Origin: Bacilli bacterium
GTDB lineage: Bacteria > Bacillota_I > Bacilli_A > RF39 > UBA660
Direction: 5' to 3'
Assembly (NCBI GenBank): GCA_017941235.1
Contig: JAGAWU010000052.1
Span: 1-32,965, forward strand
DNA length: 32,965 nucleotides
Below, piece by piece: positions 1 through 14,033 of the stretch. Numbering within the stretch: the first letter of the stretch is position 1; each line of letters opens with the position of its first letter. A program made the position numbers and the translations under genes. Below the pieces are notes generated by a model. That model was not told where the DNA came from and did not search any database. It saw only the letters and a program-made list of their open reading frames with translations.

Positions 1-3000
1 ACACCTGTCCATAAGCTTATAGTAACGCTAACATTTAGATCTTTTCCATCATCTGATTCAGAAAAACTAATGTCAGAGATTTTTATGTTCGAATATGTAT
101 CTGTTCCTGTTTGATCGGCCCAAATTGTTCGTCCAGTACTTAAATCCCATGACCAATGATTGTATCCAGCAGTGTAACAATTTGTTCCGTTAATTTCTTC
201 GTTACACTCTTTTACGGAAGAACCATGTGCTGCTGATGCGTAACCATTATGTAATGTACAATACTTTGTTGTGTTCCAGTCAGGTAGTTTTTTGATTTTA
301 GGTTTATTCTCAGTACATTTTGCTGTGAATGTTCTTTCTGTTGCATCAGTTGGTGCATAAGTACCTCCTGAAGCTTTATCACTTAATCCATCACTTGTCC
401 ATACACATGTATTTTTCTCTTTTTCTACCGTAGGTAGGATTATAGTAGGTCCTTCCCAATTTGCCGTAAATAATACTGTTCCGGATGTTGATCTTAAATT
501 CTTAAATTTTATAGCTTGTGTACTACTTATTGATGTATTAGTAGTTGTAAGTGCTCCATATGTATGTGTAACTGAATCCATGCCTGTTATATGCCAACCA
601 GTGAATTTATAATTTACTGAACCTCCGCTTTCACTAACTGAGGATTCTTTATAATCTACTGTAGCGCCTTCTTTGTTTATAAATGTAAGTTTAATCTGTT
701 TTGTTGGGTTACTGACATAAAACTCTGCATTATATACTACACCACTAGGATGATTTACTCCACTCGTTCCTTTATTTAATTCATAATCTATTGAATATGA
801 ATTTGGTATCCACTGTGCTGTTACAGTTAAATCCCCTGCATATTTTCCATCTATATAATATACTGGTACTGTTCCATTCATCGCTAAATAAACTGGAGCT
901 CCTGCTGAGACTTTCCATCCTATAAATGTATAGCCTTCTCTTACTGGTTTATTTGGTGTATCTCCAGGATACCAACTACCACTATTTGTTGAAATCCCAC
1001 GCACATTGCCATATGTAAATGTTGTTTCCCAAGTGGAAAGTTCAGAACCATTATACATTGTACCACCATTTGCATCTACAGTTAATTTGTAATTATTAAC
1101 TTCCCATTTTGCATATAAATCTACTGTTCCTCCACATGTTGATAAATTGTTTACTGATTGTCCATTAGTATATAGAACATTACCATTTGAAGATGTTGCC
1201 CATCCTTTAAATGTATAACCTGTTCTTGCGAAACCATTATTAGATAATGCTTTTGCTGTTCCTTGTGTAAATGTTTGATTACTCATTGTACCAGTTGCAT
1301 CACTTGCATTCTTATTAAATCTAACTGTATATGTACAACTTGACCATACAGCATATAAATTCGCACCATTTGCATGTGAACTAATCCAACTATTAGCAAC
1401 AGGTGCTGCCGGTTCATAATTAGGAGTCGTTGCATTTTTATCAAACGCCCATCCTTCTAATGTATATCCTTCTCTTGTGTATGAACTATATAATTTTTGC
1501 CCGCTTACATCATATGTATATGTTTTAATGTATGATGTTTCTGTTCCGTCGTTTTTATGGAACGTTACGTTTATTGATATTGGTTTCCATACAGCATATA
1601 ATTTTACAGGTCTTTGATTTGAATTAATCCAATTATTAGTAACAGTTGCTTCTGGAGCAAAATTTGTTGTCGTTGCGTTTTCGTTAAATGCCCATCCTAC
1701 TAATTCATAACCTGTTCTTGTATATAATTTAGAAAATTTTTGACCACTTACATCATATGTATATGTCTTAGTTTGTGATGTTGTTGTTCCATCATTTTTA
1801 TAGAATACTACATCTAAAGTTTTAGGAGTCCAGTTTACATTTAGTGTTGCTGTACAATCACCATTACTAGCATCACAGAATTCATTTGCTTTTATTGTGG
1901 ATGCTGAGTGTGAAAATGTTTTGTTGCTTCCTGATAATTTCCATTCTGCATCTTTTGGTACGTTGTAACCAACTCTAGTGATATTTATATAATCTGGATT
2001 ATCATAATCTGGAAGGTTAATATTTTCTGTATTATATTTATAAGTTTTAACTATTCTACTTTGATTATATAATACATAATTTGAGCTGTCATAACTTAAT
2101 TCTTCTCTTGTACTACCAGCCCAACTTCCACCGTTCATATTAAACTGAACATTGACTTTATAATTACTCCAACAACTATATGCATTAATTGTTCCGCCTT
2201 TACAAATGCTATTTTCGTCTATTGATGTTCCTTTACAATCTCCTCTAGCATTCCAACCATCGAAACTTGCACCTGTTATTTGTTCTGGAGTACGTAGTGT
2301 TCCAAATTTGCTATCTTTTGAAACTATTTTTGGATTTTGATAATCACATGTAAACGTATCATCATCTGTTAAACAATAATATATTTTACATTCTGAATCT
2401 TCTGTATCTATAGCTTTATCTAATAGATTTAATGGTGCTACTACTTTTATATGATATTCATCTCCAAGTTCACTATGTGATATTGGAATATCTAAGTAAA
2501 ATGTATTATTATTCTTAATTCCTATCATTCGCTCATTTAAGAATTCAAATCTTAAATCATTATATTCTTTTTTATTAGTGTTTGAATTATCACTTGGATC
2601 TATATCATATATCATTGAAGTTGGTTTTAACTCGTATTTTACATCTTGAAGTTTATTTGTTGCACCATCTTGTACATGGTCTTGATACATTATATAGTTA
2701 AGTTTATCACTTCTGAATATTACTAATTTTTTTTGATTAGTCCCATCGTAAAAGTTTCTAGAAAATTCCAAAGTTGCTTCTAGTTTTCTACCACTTACTG
2801 TTTCCCCTTTATCATTAGTATCTGTTGTATCAGTCATCGTAATATTCGAAACACCTTTTAATCCATAGTCTGTTATATCACTTTGGATAACTCTTGAAAC
2901 TGTATTCTTATATGTTTCAACATAACTTTTAGTATTTTCTATTTGTTCCTCAGACTTATACTCCATTAGTGTATTAAGTAATGTAATAGCAACGATTGTA

Positions 3001-3062
3001 ACTATTACAAAGCAAACTAATAGTTCTATTATTGACATTCCTTTTTTATTTAACTTTTTCAT
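1..3062 (-). CDS. Prepilin-like N-terminus fused to InlB-type B repeats (partial)
   Basis: The gene is open at the left edge: 1020 codons are visible and the C-terminus is missing. The start at 3062 gives a class III prepilin leader, MKKLNKKG, then MSIIELLVC with Glu at mature position 5 and about 20 hydrophobic residues; prepilin peptidase would cut after the Gly. Residues 30-297 are a globular region with several Cys. Residues 299-869 hold about six modules of 80-118 residues, each ending in a Trp of the type LYAVW or LYAKW and mostly carrying a GY-x-x-x-GW core, as in Listeria-Bacteroides (InlB B, Flg_new) repeats. A further Cys-containing region follows. It is probably a surface-exposed minor pilin or tip adhesin. 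It lies 10 bases after a second prepilin gene and is probably co-transcribed with it. The repeat family is clear; assembly into a pilus is inference. No sortase signal is seen, but the end is absent. Confidence 0.8.
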   Translation of the reverse strand, partial: MKKLNKKGMSIIELLVCFVIVTIVAITLLNTLMEYKSEEQIENTKSYVETYKNTVSRVIQSDITDYGLKGVSNITMTDTTDTNDKGETVSGRKLEATLEFSRNFYDGTNQKKLVIFRSDKLNYIMYQDHVQDGATNKLQDVKYELKPTSMIYDIDPSDNSNTNKKEYNDLRFEFLNERMIGIKNNNTFYLDIPISHSELGDEYHIKVVAPLNLLDKAIDTEDSECKIYYCLTDDDTFTCDYQNPKIVSKDSKFGTLRTPEQITGASFDGWNARGDCKGTSIDENSICKGGTINAYSCWSNYKVNVQFNMNGGSWAGSTREELSYDSSNYVLYNQSRIVKTYKYNTENINLPDYDNPDYINITRVGYNVPKDAEWKLSGSNKTFSHSASTIKANEFCDASNGDCTATLNVNWTPKTLDVVFYKNDGTTTSQTKTYTYDVSGQKFSKLYTRTGYELVGWAFNENATTTNFAPEATVTNNWINSNQRPVKLYAVWKPISINVTFHKNDGTETSYIKTYTYDVSGQKLYSSYTREGYTLEGWAFDKNATTPNYEPAAPVANSWISSHANGANLYAVWSSCTYTVRFNKNASDATGTMSNQTFTQGTAKALSNNGFARTGYTFKGWATSSNGNVLYTNGQSVNNLSTCGGTVDLYAKWEVNNYKLTVDANGGTMYNGSELSTWETTFTYGNVRGISTNSGSWYPGDTPNKPVREGYTFIGWKVSAGAPVYLAMNGTVPVYYIDGKYAGDLTVTAQWIPNSYSIDYELNKGTSGVNHPSGVVYNAEFYVSNPTKQIKLTFINKEGATVDYKESSVSESGGSVNYKFTGWHITGMDSVTHTYGALTTTNTSISSTQAIKFKNLRSTSGTVLFTANWEGPTIILPTVEKEKNTCVWTSDGLSDKASGGTYAPTDATERTFTAKCTENKPKIKKLPDWNTTKYCTLHNGYASAAHGSSVKECNEEINGTNCYTAGYNHWSWDLSTGRTIWADQTGTDTYSNIKISDISFSESDDGKDLNVSVTISLWTG
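1344..1829 (-). repeat. Two adjacent 81-residue B-repeat units (243 bp each)
   Basis: Within the large pilin-like protein, residues 412-492 (1829-1587) and 493-573 (1586-1344) have equal length and align without gaps. By hand about 48 of 81 positions are identical, including KTYTYDVSGQK and LYAVW. The other modules in the protein are much more diverged. This looks like a fairly recent internal duplication of one repeat module. Confidence 0.75.
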
Positions 3063-3072
3063 AATTCTACTC

Positions 3073-3714
3073 CTATTTTGCTTCTCTCAACTCTATATTT
3101 GAATAAGTATAGTAAACTTCATTTTCATTGTTTTCATTTTTTTTCACATGTTTTATTTCTATAATTAATCTTTTATAACCACTTTTAGTTTCACTTGTAG
3201 CTTCATATGTTGGCATACTTTCTATATATAATTGAAGTGGTCTAGAAATATCAACTCCATTAACACTTGAAACATTTAGATCCGATACCTTTGTTTTAAT
3301 TTGTTTCGTATTATAATCTACTAAATAAATACTTGTTATACTTGCTTCTTCTATAAAATCCTGACATTTTTGTTTGTTTTCTTTTATTAAGAGTGTGCAT
3401 AATTCGAAAGGTTTATTGTTCTCAGCGATAATATCTGGATCAGGTGTGTTAATAGTTCTAAATTGATATATATTTTTCCCATACAATTTATTATGTATTA
3501 ATTGAATATGATCTTTTCTATCACTTTCAATAAATGTTTTTATATAAAATGATATATATTTTGAGTCTAAATCATCATACTTTTCTGTTCTATTATACTT
3601 AGCCATTAAGGGTATGTAGTTTTCAAATAGTATTAAGAATATTGCAACTACAAATAAAGAACACACAAGTGTTTCAACAAGTGCAAATCCTTTGTTATTC
3701 ATTTTTTTCTTCAT
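3073..3714 (-). CDS. Type IV prepilin-like protein (pseudopilin)
   Basis: This 213-aa protein has a 9-residue leader ending MNNKG, followed by FALVETLVC, giving Phe at mature position 1 and Glu at position 5. A hydrophobic helix runs to about residue 30. These are the marks of a class III prepilin handled by prepilin peptidase. The rest is a hydrophilic globular domain ending in charged residues; I recognise no further domain, and no adhesin repeats are present. An SD-like AAAGG lies 10 bases upstream of the start. The next gene, encoding the InlB-repeat pilin, begins 10 bases after its stop, so the two form a unit. A divergent GspE/PilB ATPase gene supports a pilus or pseudopilus role. Which minor pilin it corresponds to cannot be told. 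Confidence 0.8.
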   Translation of the reverse strand: MKKKMNNKGFALVETLVCSLFVVAIFLILFENYIPLMAKYNRTEKYDDLDSKYISFYIKTFIESDRKDHIQLIHNKLYGKNIYQFRTINTPDPDIIAENNKPFELCTLLIKENKQKCQDFIEEASITSIYLVDYNTKQIKTKVSDLNVSSVNGVDISRPLQLYIESMPTYEATSETKSGYKRLIIEIKHVKKNENNENEVYYTYSNIELREAK

Positions 3715-3845: not shown

Positions 3846-3891
3846 TGTATAGTAAGGTATTTTGTACAGAATAAAAAAGGGTGAGATATTT

Positions 3892-5460
3892 ATGGTAGCA
3901 TTTGATTTTGTCAAGTCACCAATTACTAAGATAGTAGATGCAATTATTATTGAATCTTCTAAAAGTGGTGCAAGTGACATACATTTTGATCCTAGGGAAA
4001 ATGGTATGATGGTTAGACGTCGTATCGATGGTGAGCTTATGGATTATACATTTATCCCTAAAGTATATGAAAGAAATTTAACTACTAGATTAAAACTTAT
4101 GTCTGGGATGAATATAACAGAAAGTAGATTACCTCAAGATGGTGCTATTAAGGGAAAATTTGGTGAAAAAGATCTAGATATGCGTGTTTCATGTCTTCCT
4201 ACTAATGAAGGTGAAAAAATTGTTATTCGTATTTTAGATTACTCTAAAAGCTTAGATGGAATTGAAGAACTTGGGTTTAATGATGAGAATTTTGTTAAAC
4301 TTAAAAATATGATAGCAGTTCCAAATGGTATTATTCTTATTACTGGTGCTACTGGTTCTGGTAAAAGTACAACTTCTTACTCTATTTTACAAGTTTTAAA
4401 TAAAGAGGAAACTAATGTTATTACTGTTGAAGATCCAATTGAAATGAATATTGAAGGATTAAATCAAGTACAAGTTAATTCTGAAATTGGTTTAGATTTT
4501 GCCACTGTGCTTCGTTCTATTTTGCGTCAGGATCCAAATGTTATTCTTATTGGAGAAATTCGCGATAGTGAAACCGCTAAAATAGCTGTCAGAGCTTCTA
4601 TTACAGGTCATTTAGTTATTTCAACTATACATACTAATAATTCACTTTCTACTATTGAAAGACTTTTAGATATGGATGTAGAGAGATATTTACTTTCTAC
4701 TGCTTTAACTGGTATTATTTCTCAAAGACTTGCTAAAACAGTTTGTCAACATTGTAAAATTACTAGAAAAGCTTCTCCTTATGAGAAAAAAGTTTTTAAA
4801 TTAGCTTTAAATAAAGATATAGATGAAATAATTGATGCTAATCATGATGGTTGTGAGCATTGTAATAAAGGTTATCGTGGACGTATTGCTATACAAGAAG
4901 TACTTGAAATTGATGATTTTATAAGAGCTGCTCTTAATAATCCTGAAATAGATAAAGAAGAATTGAAAGAATTAGTTTATGGTTCTGGAAATGTTATTAC
5001 TCTACTACAAGATGGTCTAAGAAAAATTTTAGATGGTTCTACAACTTTTGAAGAAATATACAGGATAATAGAAATTGATAATGATATTAATGATAGTTGT
5101 TATATAAGTGATACTTCTAAATTATCTGAAGATGAAAGATTAAAAATTGAGGAAGAAAGATCACGTGAACTTAGTGAATTAAAGAAAATGAGAGAAGTTT
5201 CCAACGCTAATGTTGCAACTAGTACTACTTCTATTGTACAACCTACTGATGCTAAAAATGTATCTGACATTTTACCTGTAGTTCCATCTAATTTAAATGC
5301 AACTAATAATGTAGTTCCTAATGTTGATCAAGTTGTTATTAATATTGACAATAATGAGTCAGATAATAAAAGTGTGAGTGATATTACTCCTATTGAAACT
5401 GAAGATATTGTTAATTCATTAATACCTGAGGTCCCAAATAATCTAGAAATTAAGGAATAG
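3892..5460 (+). CDS. GspE/PilB/ComGA-type secretion ATPase with C-terminal tail
   Basis: This hexameric ATPase family powers assembly of type IV pili, pseudopili or type II secretion fibres at the inner face of the membrane. The start at 3892 is set by AAGGGTGAG at 3877-3885; an earlier in-frame TTG at 3862 lacks support. In the 522-aa product I see Walker A GATGSGKST (152-160), the Asp box with E180-D181, Walker B VILIGEIRD (217-225), the His box (240-248), and a four-Cys zinc site at C285, C288, C321 and C324. The usual N1 domain is absent, so the protein starts at the N2 domain as ComGA does. Residues 402-522 are an extra acidic, Asn/Ser/Val-rich tail of low complexity beginning with a charged helix; it is not part of the family core. 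The gene is divergent from two prepilin genes. No GspF-like platform gene is in the window. Confidence 0.92.
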   Translation: MVAFDFVKSPITKIVDAIIIESSKSGASDIHFDPRENGMMVRRRIDGELMDYTFIPKVYERNLTTRLKLMSGMNITESRLPQDGAIKGKFGEKDLDMRVSCLPTNEGEKIVIRILDYSKSLDGIEELGFNDENFVKLKNMIAVPNGIILITGATGSGKSTTSYSILQVLNKEETNVITVEDPIEMNIEGLNQVQVNSEIGLDFATVLRSILRQDPNVILIGEIRDSETAKIAVRASITGHLVISTIHTNNSLSTIERLLDMDVERYLLSTALTGIISQRLAKTVCQHCKITRKASPYEKKVFKLALNKDIDEIIDANHDGCEHCNKGYRGRIAIQEVLEIDDFIRAALNNPEIDKEELKELVYGSGNVITLLQDGLRKILDGSTTFEEIYRIIEIDNDINDSCYISDTSKLSEDERLKIEEERSRELSELKKMREVSNANVATSTTSIVQPTDAKNVSDILPVVPSNLNATNNVVPNVDQVVINIDNNESDNKSVSDITPIETEDIVNSLIPEVPNNLEIKE

Positions 5461-7874: not shown

Positions 7875-8367
7875 TTTTTTTGTTTACTTCCTGTTTTTCT
7901 AATACACTATTAATGGTAGATAATGCAAATCCTGTTACTTCTTTTATTTTTCTATATGAATATCCCATTATTCTTAGATTTTTAATCTTAGTTATGTCAT
8001 CATCAGTAACTTTTTTAGTTGTTTCATCTATTGCTTTTTTATAAGTTTTAATTTTTTCTATATCATCACCATAAGTTTCCATTGAAATTTCTTTATCAGA
8101 CCACTTAGTAGTCTTAATATTGTATGATGATACTTCATTTACTTTAGCATCAATTTTTTCAATATCTTCTTCAGTAAACATATCTGGAAGTATTCCTAGG
8201 TAATCCTTCTTCTTTTCAGAAAATGATTTTATTGCCCTCTTTACTGTTGCTGGTGAAACACCAGTTACTTCGCTTATGTTTCTAGTGGATGCACAAGTAT
8301 TTATATATAGTTTACATATTTCGTAATTCATTAATAATTTAATCTTTGATAATTCATCATTTTTCAT
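7864..8367 (-). CDS. Protein with two helix-turn-helix segments
   Basis: The start at 8367 follows GAGGTG by six bases; an upstream in-frame GTG is part of that ribosome site. In the 167-aa product two HTH-like segments stand out: residues 25-48 (NISEVTGVSPATVKRAI) and 135-158 (KIKEVTGFALSTINSVL), which share an E-V-T-G turn. Between them is a charged, partly helical linker. The first resembles SpoIIID- or resolvase-type HTHs, but I would not assign a name. It overlaps the gene before it by 11 bases and hemW by 11 bases, so it is translationally coupled inside the lepA operon. It is probably a DNA-binding regulator; the target is unknown. Confidence 0.65.
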   Translation of the reverse strand: MKNDELSKIKLLMNYEICKLYINTCASTRNISEVTGVSPATVKRAIKSFSEKKKDYLGILPDMFTEEDIEKIDAKVNEVSSYNIKTTKWSDKEISMETYGDDIEKIKTYKKAIDETTKKVTDDDITKIKNLRIMGYSYRKIKEVTGFALSTINSVLEKQEVNKKNGL

Positions 8368-8734
8368 ATTTCTCACCTCTTTTAGTGCAAGTGCCTCCTC
8401 TTACTTGACCACTATGCTTATTATCTTTTCTTTTCTTTTTTACAAAAGCAATGATGCTAGCTTGCTCTGTAGTAAGTTCTAAGTTTAGTAATGCATTATT
8501 TTTAGTATTCTTTCTTTTATTTTCTTCTAAAAACATTTTTTCTAAATTTTCGGATAAATCTCTTCCTACTGTTGAGCTTGATGTTTTTACTCCTATTTCT
8601 AAAAGTTTGTCCGCTAATTGTTCATCAGTTATTTTACCATCATTATCCATAAATACTTGTAGAGTATATATTATTCTTTCTCTTTTTTTTATATAGTTTT
8701 TTTCTTTTAATATTTCTTGTTCTTTTCTTGTCAT
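8357..8734 (-). CDS. Small HTH-like protein after lepA
   Basis: This 125-aa, lysine-rich protein begins 3 bases after the lepA stop. A GGAAAATAAGAT stretch overlapping the lepA end is the only possible ribosome site, and it is weak. Residues about 18-62 look like a winged or three-helix DNA-binding region, with ITDEQLADKLLEIGVKTSSS leading into TVGRDLS. The C-terminal 45 residues are basic (KKKRKDNKHSG and onwards) and may contact nucleic acid. I do not recognise the family. Its position directly between lepA and a second HTH gene suggests a pair of co-expressed regulators. Confidence 0.55.
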   Translation of the reverse strand: MTRKEQEILKEKNYIKKRERIIYTLQVFMDNDGKITDEQLADKLLEIGVKTSSSTVGRDLSENLEKMFLEENKRKNTKNNALLNLELTTEQASIIAFVKKKRKDNKHSGQVRGGTCTKRGEKYEK

Positions 8735-8737
8735 ATC

Positions 8738-10537
8738 TTATTTTCCATCTGTACTTAATACACTCATAAATGCTTCTTGTGGAAGCTCAACACTTCCTAT
8801 TTGTTTCATTTTCTTTTTTCCTTCTTTTTGCTTTTCTAGTAGCTTTTTCTTTCTTGTGATATCTCCACCATAGCACTTAGCAAGTACATCTTTTCTTAAT
8901 GCTTTGACTGTGGAACGTGCGATTACATGATTACCTATTGCTGCTTGTATAGGTATTTCAAATAATTGTCTTGGTATTGATTCTTTTAATTTTTCAACTA
9001 CTGCTCTTCCTCTATTATAACTAAATTCTTTAAATACTATTGTACTTAATGCATCAATTACTTCTCCGTTAAGTAATATATCCATTTTTACTAATTCACT
9101 AGGTCTATAACCAATTAGCTCATAATCAAATGATGCATATCCTTTAGTAAATGATTTTAATTTATCGAAAAAGTCATATACTATTTCAGCAAGTGGTATT
9201 TCATAATGAAGATTAACTCTTTCATCATCTATATATTCCATTGATATATATTTACCTCGTTTATCTTGGCAAAGTTCCATTACACTTCCTATATATGTAC
9301 TTGGTGTAAATATATTTGTTCTAACATAGGGTTCAAGTGTTTCTTTATATTTACTTTTATCTGGCATTTCACTAGGAGCATCAATTAATAGTTCTTCACC
9401 ATTAGTTAATATTACTTTATATACAACTGAAGGTGCTGTAGTAATAATATCTATATTAAATTCTCTGGTAATTCTTTCTTTTATTATATCCATATGAAGA
9501 AGTCCTAAAAAACCACATCTAAATCCGAACCCAAGTGCACTTGATGTTTCAGGTGAGAATTCAAGTGATGCATCATTTAGTTTTAATTTGTTAAGTGCAT
9601 CTCTTAAAGCTTCAAATTTTACACTTTCGACAGGATATAGTCCACAGAATACCATTGATTTCATAGGTTTATATCCTGGTAGTGGAACATCTGTATATTT
9701 TTCTTTTGAAGTAATTGTGTCACCTACTTTTACTTTTGAAATATCTTTTATAGATGCTACTATATGTCCAACTTCTCCAGTAGTTAATGTACTTTTGGCT
9801 ACTTCCTTTGGTGTGTTTATAAATAATTCTGTAACTAAATAATCTGAATTTGATTCAATCATATGAATAGTATCTCCGACTTTTAGGCTTCCATTCATTA
9901 TACGAGCTGCTATTACTACTCCTCTATATGAATCATATATACTATCAAATATCAGTGCTTGAAGTGGTCCTTCTTCTTTTCCTTTAGGTGATGGTATTTT
10001 TCTTATTATTTCCTCTACTAATTCTTTTACTCCTTCGCCAGTTTTTGCACTGGTTAGAATAATTTCTTCTTTTGTAAAACCAAATATTTTATTAAGCTCT
10101 TCGGTAACTTTTTCTACATTTGCACTTGGTAAATCAATTTTGTTTATTACAGGTATTATCACTAAATCATTATCAAGTGCTAAAAACATATTTGCAAGCG
10201 TTTGTGCCTCTATCCCTTGAGTTGCATCTACTATTAATATCGCACCATCACACGAAGCAAGGCTACGTGAGACTTCATATGAAAAATCTACATGACCTGG
10301 AGTATCAATTAGATTGAGTAGGTATTCTTCATTTTCATACTTATATTTCATTGTTGCGGTATTAAGTTTAATTGTTATACCTCGTTCCCTTTCAATGTCC
10401 ATAGAATCAAGTATTTGATCTTTACTTTCTCTTTTGGTAACAGCTCCACATACTTCCAATATTCTATCTGCAAGTGTACTTTTACCATGATCGATATGTG
10501 CTATAATTGAAAAATTCCTTATATTTTCTTGTTTCAT
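8738..10537 (-). CDS. lepA: Elongation factor 4 (LepA)
   Basis: LepA is a ribosome-associated translational GTPase. The start at 10537 ([18 protein letters not shown]) follows GGTGAAAGAC; an earlier in-frame GTG overlaps that site. The 599-aa length is standard. Motifs: G1 AHIDHGKST (13-21), G3 DTPGHVDF, G4 NKIDLPSA and G5 SAKTGEG. The basic C-terminal region with [16 protein letters not shown], and the ending around [12 protein letters not shown], are diagnostic for LepA as against EF-G. It is the first gene of a six-gene operon running to tmk, with a promoter at 10557-10585 and a palindrome over its -35 region. Confidence 0.96.
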
Positions 10538-10556
10538 GTCTTTCACCACTAGGCTA

Positions 10557-10585
10557 ATTATATCATAATAGAAGTTTTATTGGAA
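10557..10585 (-). promoter_or_regulatory. Promoter of the lepA operon (extended -10)
   Basis: The minus strand has TATAAT at 10562-10557 preceded by TGA, an extended -10. The -35 at 17 bases, TTCCAA, is poor. A perfect palindrome at 10572-10597 covers the -35 region. Confidence 0.5.
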
Positions 10586-10597
10586 GAAATAAAACTT
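10572..10597. repeat. Perfect 10-base palindrome between divergent promoters
   Basis: AAGTTTTATT, six bases, then AATAAAACTT. It overlaps the lepA -35 region and ends 3 bases before the methyltransferase -35. There is no T run in either direction as expected of a terminator, so an operator is possible. Confidence 0.55.
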
Positions 10598-10600
10598 TAT

Positions 10601-10629
10601 TTGTTAATAATTTATAATTTGTGTATAAT
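10601..10629 (+). promoter_or_regulatory. Promoter of the methyltransferase gene
   Basis: TTGTTA at 10601-10606 and TATAAT at 10624-10629 with a 17-base spacer. The predicted transcript start near 10636 lies only about 9 bases before the ATG at 10645. Confidence 0.65.
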
Positions 10630-10644
10630 AGTTTTGTGATTTAT

Positions 10645-11427
10645 ATGAATGAAGAGAATTTAATAAAATATTATAATAAGTTTAATGAAGATAAACGCCT
10701 TAAAACTCATCATGGTAGGGTTGAATATATGACTGCTATGAAATATATAGAAAAGTTTTTGAAAAAGTATGATAATCCTAGTATTCTTGATATTGGAGCT
10801 GGATGTGGTGCTTACTCTATACCTTTGAGTGAAAAAGCAAATATTACTGCTTTAGAGTTAGTTAAACATAACTTAAAAGTTATAGAAAAGAAAGATAGTC
10901 TTAAAAGAGTTAAATTGGTACTTGGTAATGCTACTAATTTAAGTAGATTTAAGGATAATTCTTTTGATATTGTTCTTCTTTTTGGACCAATGTATCATTT
11001 GATTAGTATGGATGATAAATTAAAAGCTTTAATTGAAGCTAAAAGGGTTTTGAAAGAAAATGGTTTGATATTTATTAGTTATTGTATGAATGAATATGCC
11101 GTTATTACTCATGGTTTTAAAGATGGATTTATAATGGGTGAAATGAATAAACTTGATAAACATTTTAAAATCATTTCAAATGAGGATGATTTGTATTCTT
11201 ACGTTAGATTAGAAGATATTAATTATTTAAAGAAAAAGTCAAATTTAAAAAGGGTCAAAATTGTTAGTCAAGATGGACCAACTGAGTATTTAAAGAAAGA
11301 AATTAATAGTATGAGTAATGATGAGTTTAATATATATCTAAGGTATCACTATTCTATATGTGAACGAAAGGAGTTATTAGGCTCATCTAGGCATGTGCTT
11401 GATATATTAAAAAAGCAACTACGCTAA
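10645..11427 (+). CDS. Class I SAM-dependent methyltransferase
   Basis: The 260-aa product has motif I DIGAGCGAYS (49-58), an acidic residue ending strand 2 (E71 in ITALELVKHN), and the motif IV-like FDIVLLFGPMYHL (108-120), all typical of the Methyltransf_11/25 group. The substrate cannot be told; small-molecule targets are common in this group. The ATG at 10645 is chosen because an in-frame GTG at 10621 lies across the promoter. No SD is visible, and the leader would be about 9 bases or less, so translation may be nearly leaderless. It is a single-gene unit, divergent from lepA and ended by the terminator at 11411-11438. Confidence 0.82.
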   Translation: MNEENLIKYYNKFNEDKRLKTHHGRVEYMTAMKYIEKFLKKYDNPSILDIGAGCGAYSIPLSEKANITALELVKHNLKVIEKKDSLKRVKLVLGNATNLSRFKDNSFDIVLLFGPMYHLISMDDKLKALIEAKRVLKENGLIFISYCMNEYAVITHGFKDGFIMGEMNKLDKHFKIISNEDDLYSYVRLEDINYLKKKSNLKRVKIVSQDGPTEYLKKEINSMSNDEFNIYLRYHYSICERKELLGSSRHVLDILKKQLR

Positions 11428-11438
11428 TAGTTGCTTTT
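11411..11438. terminator. Bidirectional intrinsic terminator
   Basis: AAAAGCAACTA, six-base loop, TAGTTGCTTTT. T runs exist in both directions, so it serves the methyltransferase gene on plus and dtd on minus. The loop contains the methyltransferase stop codon. Confidence 0.8.
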
Positions 11439-11442
11439 CTAT

Positions 11443-11877
11443 TTACTTTTCTATTATTATAGTCACTGGCCCATCGTTTTGTATTTCTACTTCCATATCA
11501 CTTCCAAATATACCTGTTTCAACATGTATTTTTTCACTTAACTTTTTATTAAATTCATTATATAGTGGTTCTGATAATTCACTTTTTAATGCTTTTGTAT
11601 AACTTGGTCTATTTCCGTTTGAACAATCACCGTATAAAGTAAATTGTGATATTGAAAGAATACTTCCATCTATGTCTAAAATACTTTTGTTCATTACTTT
11701 ATTTTCATCATCAAAAATCCTTAGTTTAAGTATTTTATTTATCATCCAGTCTATTTCTTTTGTTGTGTCTCCTTCAGTAAATGAAACAAGTAATACAAGT
11801 CCTTTATCTATTTTTCCATGTACTTCACCATCTATGGTTACTTTAGATTTTTTACTACGTTGTACTACTACTTTCAT
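11443..11877 (-). CDS. dtd: D-aminoacyl-tRNA deacylase
   Basis: Dtd hydrolyses D-amino acids, and glycine mischarged on tRNA-Ala, from tRNA in the cytoplasm. The 144-aa length is typical. The SQFTLYG motif (77-83), the segment NGNRPSYTKA (88-97) and the C-terminal NDGPVT with the Gly-Pro pair (136-137) are the family's active-site signatures. The start overlaps the end of rel by 4 bases (ATGA), as in many Bacillota where the two genes are adjacent. It is the last gene of the secDF-rel-dtd unit. Confidence 0.95.
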   Translation of the reverse strand: MKVVVQRSKKSKVTIDGEVHGKIDKGLVLLVSFTEGDTTKEIDWMINKILKLRIFDDENKVMNKSILDIDGSILSISQFTLYGDCSNGNRPSYTKALKSELSEPLYNEFNKKLSEKIHVETGIFGSDMEVEIQNDGPVTIIIEK

Positions 11878-14033
11878 CTCATAAACCTTTCTACTTTTGA
11901 TATATAACTTTCTTTAGTTAAATTAAATATTAGATTGTTTAATTGATTTAAATCTCTTACATAACAGGTTACTTCGTATACATATACATCTGTTTTAAAT
12001 ATTGTTTTGATACCTTCTACATTTACATCACATTTTGTTATCTTTTGTATTATGTCTGCCATGTGATTTTCATTAGAGGTTGAATGTACTAATAATTCAG
12101 ACAAATATCTTTTGTTTGATTTATCATCCCATCTTACTTCTACTAATCTGTCATCAATATCTTCCATATTATGACAATTAACTCTATGTATTGAAATACC
12201 ATTTCCTTTAGTAATGTATCCAAGTATTTCATCTCCAAATATTGGATTACAACAATTAGCTAAACTTACTCTTACACTATCTATTCCGCTTACTATTATA
12301 TCTGTGTCTTTGTCTTTCTTTATAGCTACTACTTTTTTAGGAGCTTCTTTTTCTAAATATGGTTTATCAATTATATTTATTACTGAATTTGCAGAATTCT
12401 TTCCATTTCCTACATTTAAATATAATTCTTCTATATCATTTACTTTTATTACTTCAAGTATTTGCTCTAAGTTTTTTCCAGTAAATATTTCATTAAATGG
12501 AATTTTTCTTTTTCGTAATTCTTTTTCTAAGGAATCTTTTCCTCTTTCAATATATACTTCTTTTTCACTTTTAGTAAAGAAACTTTTAATCTTATTTCTT
12601 GTAGCTGTACTTTTAACAAATTTTATCCATTCTTTAGAAGGAGTACTACTCTTATTTGTATTTATTTTTACTATATCTCCATCTTTAAGATTGTAGTTAA
12701 GTGGTACTATATTATTATTTACTATAGCCCCTGTTGCAGTTTCTCCTACTTTTGTATGTATTTTGTATGCAAAGTCTATTGGTGTTGCATCTCTTGGAAG
12801 TTCTATTACATCTCCTTTTGGAGTAAAACAATAAATATTATTATTTAAAACTTCATCTCTTACTACATTAACAAAATCTTCACTACTTAGTTTATCATTT
12901 GATAAGTCTATTATTGATTTAAAAAATTGCAATTTTTGTTCCGTAGATGTTTGCATTGAAGATTTGGTTTGATTAACATTTTTATTTTCTTTATATGCCC
13001 AGTGTGACGCTATACCATTTTCTGCGATTTCATCCATTTCATGTGTACGTATTTGAATTTCAAATAAGTATCCACCTATTCCAAAAACTGTAGTATGAAG
13101 TGATTGATACATATTTGTTTTTGGCATTGCAATATAGTCTTTAAAACGTCTTGGCATTGGTCTATATTTTGAATGTATAATACCTAGTGCTAGGTAACAT
13201 TCTTGCTTTGTTTCTACTAAAATACGAAGTGCACTTAGATCATATATTTCGCTAAATTTTTTTCCTTTATCTAGTTTTCTATATATACTGTAAATACTTT
13301 TTGCTCTCCCTAGTATCTCGTGATTAATGTTGTGCTCGTTTAGTAAATCTGTAACACTGGTCATCATTTCACTAACCGTGTGTTCTCTTTCTATTTTTGT
13401 TTTATTTAGTTTTTCAGCTATATCATAAAATATATCTGGTTTTAAATATCTTAATGATAGGTCTTCAAGTTCACTTTTGATTTTATGTATTCCTAAGTGA
13501 TCTCCTATTGGTGCTAAAATTTCTAATGCTTCTTTTGCTATTTTCTTTTGCTTTACTTCGGGAAGAGCCCAAAGAGTTCTCATATTATGAAGACGATCAG
13601 CTAGTTTTACTATTATTACTCTTACATCTTCACTCATTCCTACAATTATTTTTTTATAGTATTCAATTAAATACTCATTTTCGGTAGAAAAGTGAAGCCT
13701 TGAAATTTTAGTAACTCCTTCTACTAGTTTTGTTACTGTCTCGCCTACTAAATGCATCATTTCTTCTCTAGTACAGTCACAATCTTCAAGTACATCATGA
13801 AGTAGTGCTGCTTGTATTGTTTCACTATCTGCATAAATTGTAGTAAGTATCATTGCAACGTTTAAAGGGTGAACTATATAAGGTTCACCACTTTTACGAA
13901 ATTGCCCTTCGTGCTTTTCTTCAGCAAGATTATAGGCTTTTTTAATATTATTTAATTCTTCTTCATCTTTAATATAAACTTTAATCTTTTCCATTACATC
14001 ATCAAATGTAATTAGATCAAAACTATGTGCCAT
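11874..14033 (-). CDS. rel: Bifunctional (p)ppGpp synthetase/hydrolase Rel
   Basis: The protein makes and degrades the stringent-response alarmone on the ribosome. In 719 aa the domains are ordered: HD hydrolase with H55, H79-D80, E83-D84 and D146 all present, so hydrolysis should be active; synthetase at about 240-360 with RFKDYIAMPK, NMYQSLHTTV and EIQIRTHEMDEIAE; TGS at about 393-455 (IYCFTPKGDVIELP); a zinc-finger/helical part with SLANCCNP; and a C-terminal ACT/RRM domain. The start follows GGAGTGA by a few bases. Only 21 bases separate it from secDF, and it overlaps dtd, so it sits in one operon. The length and all domains are standard for the long Rel of Gram-positives. Confidence 0.95.
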   Translation of the reverse strand: MAHSFDLITFDDVMEKIKVYIKDEEELNNIKKAYNLAEEKHEGQFRKSGEPYIVHPLNVAMILTTIYADSETIQAALLHDVLEDCDCTREEMMHLVGETVTKLVEGVTKISRLHFSTENEYLIEYYKKIIVGMSEDVRVIIVKLADRLHNMRTLWALPEVKQKKIAKEALEILAPIGDHLGIHKIKSELEDLSLRYLKPDIFYDIAEKLNKTKIEREHTVSEMMTSVTDLLNEHNINHEILGRAKSIYSIYRKLDKGKKFSEIYDLSALRILVETKQECYLALGIIHSKYRPMPRRFKDYIAMPKTNMYQSLHTTVFGIGGYLFEIQIRTHEMDEIAENGIASHWAYKENKNVNQTKSSMQTSTEQKLQFFKSIIDLSNDKLSSEDFVNVVRDEVLNNNIYCFTPKGDVIELPRDATPIDFAYKIHTKVGETATGAIVNNNIVPLNYNLKDGDIVKINTNKSSTPSKEWIKFVKSTATRNKIKSFFTKSEKEVYIERGKDSLEKELRKRKIPFNEIFTGKNLEQILEVIKVNDIEELYLNVGNGKNSANSVINIIDKPYLEKEAPKKVVAIKKDKDTDIIVSGIDSVRVSLANCCNPIFGDEILGYITKGNGISIHRVNCHNMEDIDDRLVEVRWDDKSNKRYLSELLVHSTSNENHMADIIQKITKCDVNVEGIKTIFKTDVYVYEVTCYVRDLNQLNNLIFNLTKESYISKVERFMR

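Follow-up and report, generated by a model that had tools for sequence, protein, structure and literature searches.

We think it likely that the gene at the left end of the DNA analyzed here encodes a modular minor pilin that presents a long stalk of B repeats, probably at the tip of a type IV filament and probably in the service of adhesion. The window is the whole of contig C29, 32,965 bases of the draft genome of an uncultivated bacterium that appears to be Gram-positive (1.56 Mb in 57 contigs, 91% complete, about 6% contamination). The gene, here called pilin2, occupies positions 3 to 3062 of the minus strand and encodes P0001, a protein of at least 1020 residues, its 3' end being lost at the contig end. 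A Shine-Dalgarno-like TAGGAG accompanies its ATG, which is 10 nt past the stop codon of pilin1, a second minor pilin of 213 aa (3073 to 3714, minus strand) recognized from its sequence, NNKG/FALVE, and from a conserved gene block; the two are probably cotranscribed. Divergent from this pair is a PilB/GspE-type assembly ATPase (3862 to 5460, plus strand; T2SSE at 383 bits, with an NCBIfam match). Four features of a modular type IV pilin are present: a class III signal peptide, a predicted pilin fold, a C-terminal domain foreign to pili, and genes for assembly.

The leader of P0001, MKKLNKKG (3039 to 3062, minus strand), is predicted from the sequence and the N_methyl match to be cut after Gly8, at KKG/MSIIELL, leaving the expected Glu5. 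N_methyl matched residues 5 to 28 above the cut-off in the genome profile search (25.5 bits) and fell slightly below it in hmmscan (19.6 bits versus a cut-off of 21.2). The first-pass annotation had read the same class III leader and Glu5, and both Pfam families that it named, N_methyl and Flg_new, matched the protein. It had also described a prepilin N terminus fused to repeats. The fusion is real, but what precedes the repeats is more than a bare leader: ortholog alignment, modeling, and structural matches all place there an ordinary minor pilin, about 215 residues long (residues 1 to 215 including the leader; 2418 to 3062, minus strand).

When residues 1 to 218 were aligned with orthologs and modeled with AlphaFold2, the result (pLDDT 87.2) was a 56-residue helix (residues 11 to 66) followed by beta strands. 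The nearest folds were those of type II secretion: the best seven of the 996 PDB chains compared were GspI-GspJ-type minor pseudopilins at Z values of 5.7 to 7.1 (EpsJ, XcpW, GspJ, and one pseudopilus model, with J called by chain length), and the next entry after them was an unrelated protein at 4.7. Identity to the GspJ-type chains in the structural alignments was 5 to 8%. Foldseek alone, run against the PDB with the pilin module, returned nothing significant (best E value, 0.077), and phmmer against the PDB gave no match. Because the Foldseek result was not significant and all Z values were below 8, the assignment of a J-type fold is suggestive only.

Beyond the pilin module lies a graft of about seven Flg_new-type B repeats (residues 222 to 869; 456 to 2399, minus strand). 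Flg_new (PF09479) scored 71 bits (cut-off, 27), spread over five stretches, and TIGR02543 matched likewise; by eye, seven repeat cores can be placed near residues 264, 365, 451, 532, 615, 710, and 819. An earlier estimate of about six modules between residues 299 and 869 was thus correct as to the repeats, with a count that was right or slightly low. With a custom repeat HMM, 500 composition shuffles of P0001 never exceeded 6.1 bits, so the array is not due to chance. In a collection of named genomes, the repeats matched only a contig of a distant member of the Clostridia. The contig end then cuts a Cys-containing C-terminal module, of which residues 870 to 1020 remain (3 to 455, minus strand). 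It is shared with a pilin encoded on contig C56 of the same genome; across the family, good matches were found only in this genome, with weak fragments in two other genomes and a divergent copy in the congener G001. A model of two repeats, for which a beta-grasp fold would be expected, plus this module reached a pLDDT of only 45 and was set aside.

All four genomes of the genus encode orthologs of residues 1 to 214, and these differ in what follows. In G001 the same fusion is found complete, as an 828-aa protein with B repeats, so the architecture recurs in a related genome. In G002 and G003, pilin2 sits in the same place, with pilB and pilin1 on one side and ylbJ and sepM on the other, as a protein of 208 to 223 aa without repeats, and in the alignment these ungrafted orthologs stop where the repeats of P0001 start. 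Comparison with these short, syntenic, repeat-free counterparts indicates that the P0001 repeats were grafted onto the C terminus of an old minor pilin about 215 residues long. Pilin2 matches at E values of ≤0.001 occurred in 111 of the 193 family genomes sampled, the weak ones including other pilins, and the pilB, pilin1, and pilin2 block recurs across the family in the loci read. Among loci fetched as best pilin-module matches, family pilin2 proteins are usually about 165 to 230 residues long, with a maximum of 292 outside the genus. It is from the short forms in G002, G003, and the wider family that we read the ancestral state as an ordinary minor pilin, and a syntenic locus with and without a graft in close relatives offers a view of how a modular pilin originates. 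Three further complete proteins, of 1959 aa (C56), 1276 aa (G001), and 2108 aa (G002), combine a prepilin start with Flg_new repeats.

Conserved gene order suggests where the missing 3' end belongs. A single G001 contig carries pilB, pilin1, pilin2, ylbJ, sepM, mutS, mtaB, and recD2, followed by more large pilin genes, and C56 begins with ylbJ, sepM, and mutS and finishes with large pilins. By this synteny we infer that C29 is probably adjacent to the left end of C56, which would leave about 14 kb between the two genes for B-repeat pilins. A join to C48, where a B-repeat ORF is likewise cut at the contig end, was considered; no overlap was found, and synteny favors C56. The C48 protein (L050, 1910 to 5305, minus strand) has lost its N terminus to the cut, has Flg_new as its sole Pfam match above the cut-off, and carries a metallopeptidase-like motif, GAMVHELGHAFE, near its C terminus. 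On C56, two large prepilins stand in tandem just past recD2 (L045, 6101 to 7819, 572 aa, and 7918 to 13797, 1959 aa), the second with B repeats, and the 2108-aa B-repeat prepilin of G002 (L103) also adjoins recD2.

The two pilin genes are not equally similar along their length. Over the last 403 aligned columns, pilin2 and the 3' portion of the C56 gene are identical at 394 (97.8%), and over the preceding 700 columns at 551 (78.7%); the C56 gene continues for 94 further residues before its stop. The G001 ortholog is 50% identical to P0001 up to residue 324 and 27% beyond, a level that reflects general repeat similarity only, whereas residues 358 to 1020 of P0001 are 60% identical to the C56 protein. 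That the distal part is nearer to the C56 protein than to the ortholog suggests, on these alignments, that the two pilin genes exchanged distal arms once the species had diverged. For the extreme 3' end a collapsed assembly repeat is a possible alternative, yet nine differences persist in the 97.8% tract.

The genome holds one PilC, on C57, adjoining one prepilin peptidase with A24_N and A24 domains; its PilB is the window gene, and more pilins are encoded on C55 (three), C42, C52, and C56, with several major-pilin-like genes among the profile matches. GspF and prepilin peptidase genes had been suggested as something to look for next door: PilB adjoins the locus, and PilC and the peptidase are elsewhere in the genome. 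Lack of a peptidase, or an LPXTG or other C-terminal anchor, had been named as evidence against a pilin. The peptidase exists, and neither a C-terminal sortase motif nor a second hydrophobic segment after the pilin helix was found in the four complete prepilin and B-repeat proteins of the genus, P0001 itself being cut before its stop. The remaining B-repeat proteins read in these genomes lack a prepilin start, and one of them, on C16, ends in a hydrophobic tail with NPHTG. No secretin was found in the genome, nor was PilT, which could sit in an assembly gap given 91% completeness; these two results fit a filament of a monoderm cell, and eight sortase-family matches agree. The T2SSE cut-off was passed only by PilB and by one VirB11/TadA-like ATPase, a 603-aa frame apart from the pilus genes (C5, 52480 to 53070; L131), a candidate retraction motor that was dismissed. 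The PilB-like ATPase of the window ends in a long C-terminal tail, variable in length among the congeners (proteins of 532, 622, 743, and 551 aa).

The fold matches are pseudopilins, the top-scoring models for the window PilB and the genome PilC are GspE and GspF, and with PilT not found, one could picture P0001 in no more than a short periwall pseudopilus, built by a secretion-type machine, with the repeat arm piercing the wall as a stalk on the cell surface and no long pilus made. We regard this as unlikely, since the lack of a secretin speaks against classical type II secretion and the several major-pilin-like genes suit a filament at least equally well. A DNA uptake filament of the Com type, in which the graft would bind DNA or cross the wall rather than act as a surface adhesin, would also suit a monoderm-type genome with a PilB, PilC, and peptidase set and without PilT, and weak similarity to ComGE, ComGF, and ComGA points the same way. 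Every ComG equivalog model nevertheless stayed under its cut-off (ComGA, 264 bits of 300; ComGE, 17.5 of 49; ComGF, 23.6 of 80; ComGB, 138 of 240), the literature assigns B repeats a stalk role in fibrillar adhesins (PMC9210967), and relatives carry lectin-like modules in the same slot, all of which make this reading improbable.

Two further readings deny the pilin or the fusion. The sortase-family genes of this genome, together with a P0001 C terminus that lies beyond the contig end, would allow a sortase-anchored B-repeat protein with an N terminus that is prepilin-like by resemblance only, but the pilin locus and fold are conserved and the complete relatives have neither a C-terminal sortase motif nor a hydrophobic tail, so we give this very little weight. 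The fusion might also be an assembly chimera of a pilin gene and an unrelated repeat gene, in a contaminated draft where the gene is broken off by the end of its contig, close to duplicated sequence. Such an error is scarcely credible: the independent genome G001 has the same fusion complete within a 52-kb contig, 50% identical to P0001 across the junction (residues 1 to 324), which argues that the fusion is no artifact of assembly.

For a modular minor pilin the parts of the reading deserve different degrees of confidence. That P0001 is such a pilin and is processed by the prepilin peptidase is very likely. Its incorporation at or near the filament tip is a reasonable expectation, drawn from the J-like fold, the bulk of the arm, and published modular pilins (PMC8179133, PMC9934059), and it accords with an earlier proposal of a repeat rod on a pilus tip or pseudopilus. 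Adhesion as the main role, judged from the type of domain, is somewhat favored. In such a scheme, Sec would export the long C-terminal arm, the peptidase would cleave after Gly8, and the PilB/PilC machine would pull the mature protein, with the pilin helix as its sole membrane anchor, into an initiating tip complex. The repeat arm would then project from the tip as a stalk and bind a host, mucus, or neighbor-cell ligand through its repeats or its distal module. Size is a consideration against this, as complete relatives can be as long as 2108 residues, which is a lot for one subunit of a filament; an extreme multidomain modular pilin remarked on in the literature has 860 residues (PMC8179133).

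Familiar B-repeat surface proteins are held by GW modules, held by sortase, or secreted. P0001 shares the Flg_new repeat family with InlB and other such proteins, but its anchor, unlike theirs, would be a pilin helix. We know of no GspJ with a graft of this type, and the setting also differs from that of GspJ in the absence of a detectable secretin from this genome. Modular pilins as a class have been defined, with >1,200 proteins in 264 architectures counted, and adhesion has been shown for the vWA module of Streptococcus sanguinis PilB (PMC8179133); PilA, PilB, and PilC of that species have been modeled as a tip complex (PMC9934059). Like PilB and the lectin-bearing PilC, P0001 combines a class III leader, a small pilin module, and a bulky unrelated C-terminal module in a monoderm host (PMC8179133, PMC9934059), and the Laminin_G_3 modules encoded next to pilB in two relatives, G192 and G132, extend the resemblance. 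It differs from them in having about seven B repeats and >1000 residues where theirs is a single globular domain, in its GspJ-like pilin module, and in a genome with further very large modular pilins and no PilT found. CofB and TcpB are also minor pilins with an extended beta-rich arm at a pilus tip, but their domains are unrelated and they belong to type IVb pili of diderm bacteria (PMC8179133).

The first-pass annotation saw in P0001 a different way for a Gram-positive bacterium to display an adhesin. That was correct as to kind, but the principle is not new, adhesive modules on pilins being already established. What the protein brings is a long repeat stalk as an addition to the grafts already known on pilins, and its genome encodes other very large modular pilins. 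Our text searches, a check separate from the published list of 264 architectures, turned up no description of a B-repeat pilin. Three things appear to be new: the B-repeat graft, the use of this slot for other modules in relatives, and the suggested recent exchange of 3' ends with a second pilin gene that carries B repeats.

Elsewhere in the family, the same position carries other arms. ALK/LTK-type glycine-rich domains follow pilin2 or pilin1 in G113, G139, G247, and G424, the Laminin_G_3 modules noted above are lectin-like (concanavalin A-like), a DUF6273 match fills the slot in G110, and other long forms of pilin2 match nothing in Pfam. B repeats appear in genus g14 as well: G424 has one ahead of its glycine-rich domain, at 27.1 bits against the cut-off of 27, and pilin1 of G398 has a weak match at 19 bits, under the cut-off. 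These loci were chosen because the pilin match fell in a long frame, so a frequency of grafting is not derivable from them. We tentatively suggest that the two minor-pilin genes beside pilB form a standing cassette site of the family, at which arms (B repeats, glycine-rich, lectin-like, and others) may be swapped time and again onto an unchanged pilin base while recombination with a second B-repeat pilin gene may renew the distal end. If so, the pilus tip would vary between, and perhaps within, species. Grafts that differ across a family at one slot provide a natural series for asking about tip ligands in uncultivated bacteria.

Glycine-rich ALK/LTK-type or Laminin_G_3 minor pilins were seen beside pilB at loci L109, L111, L113, L124, L140, and L145. 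At the two best places in phage records, no prepilin start was seen in the B-repeat ORFs, both of which are truncated where the retrieved sequence begins. Large proteins matching the B repeats occur on MT836193.1 (L152) and MT837130.1 (L153), fecal scaffolds carrying the unverified label "Bacteriophage sp."
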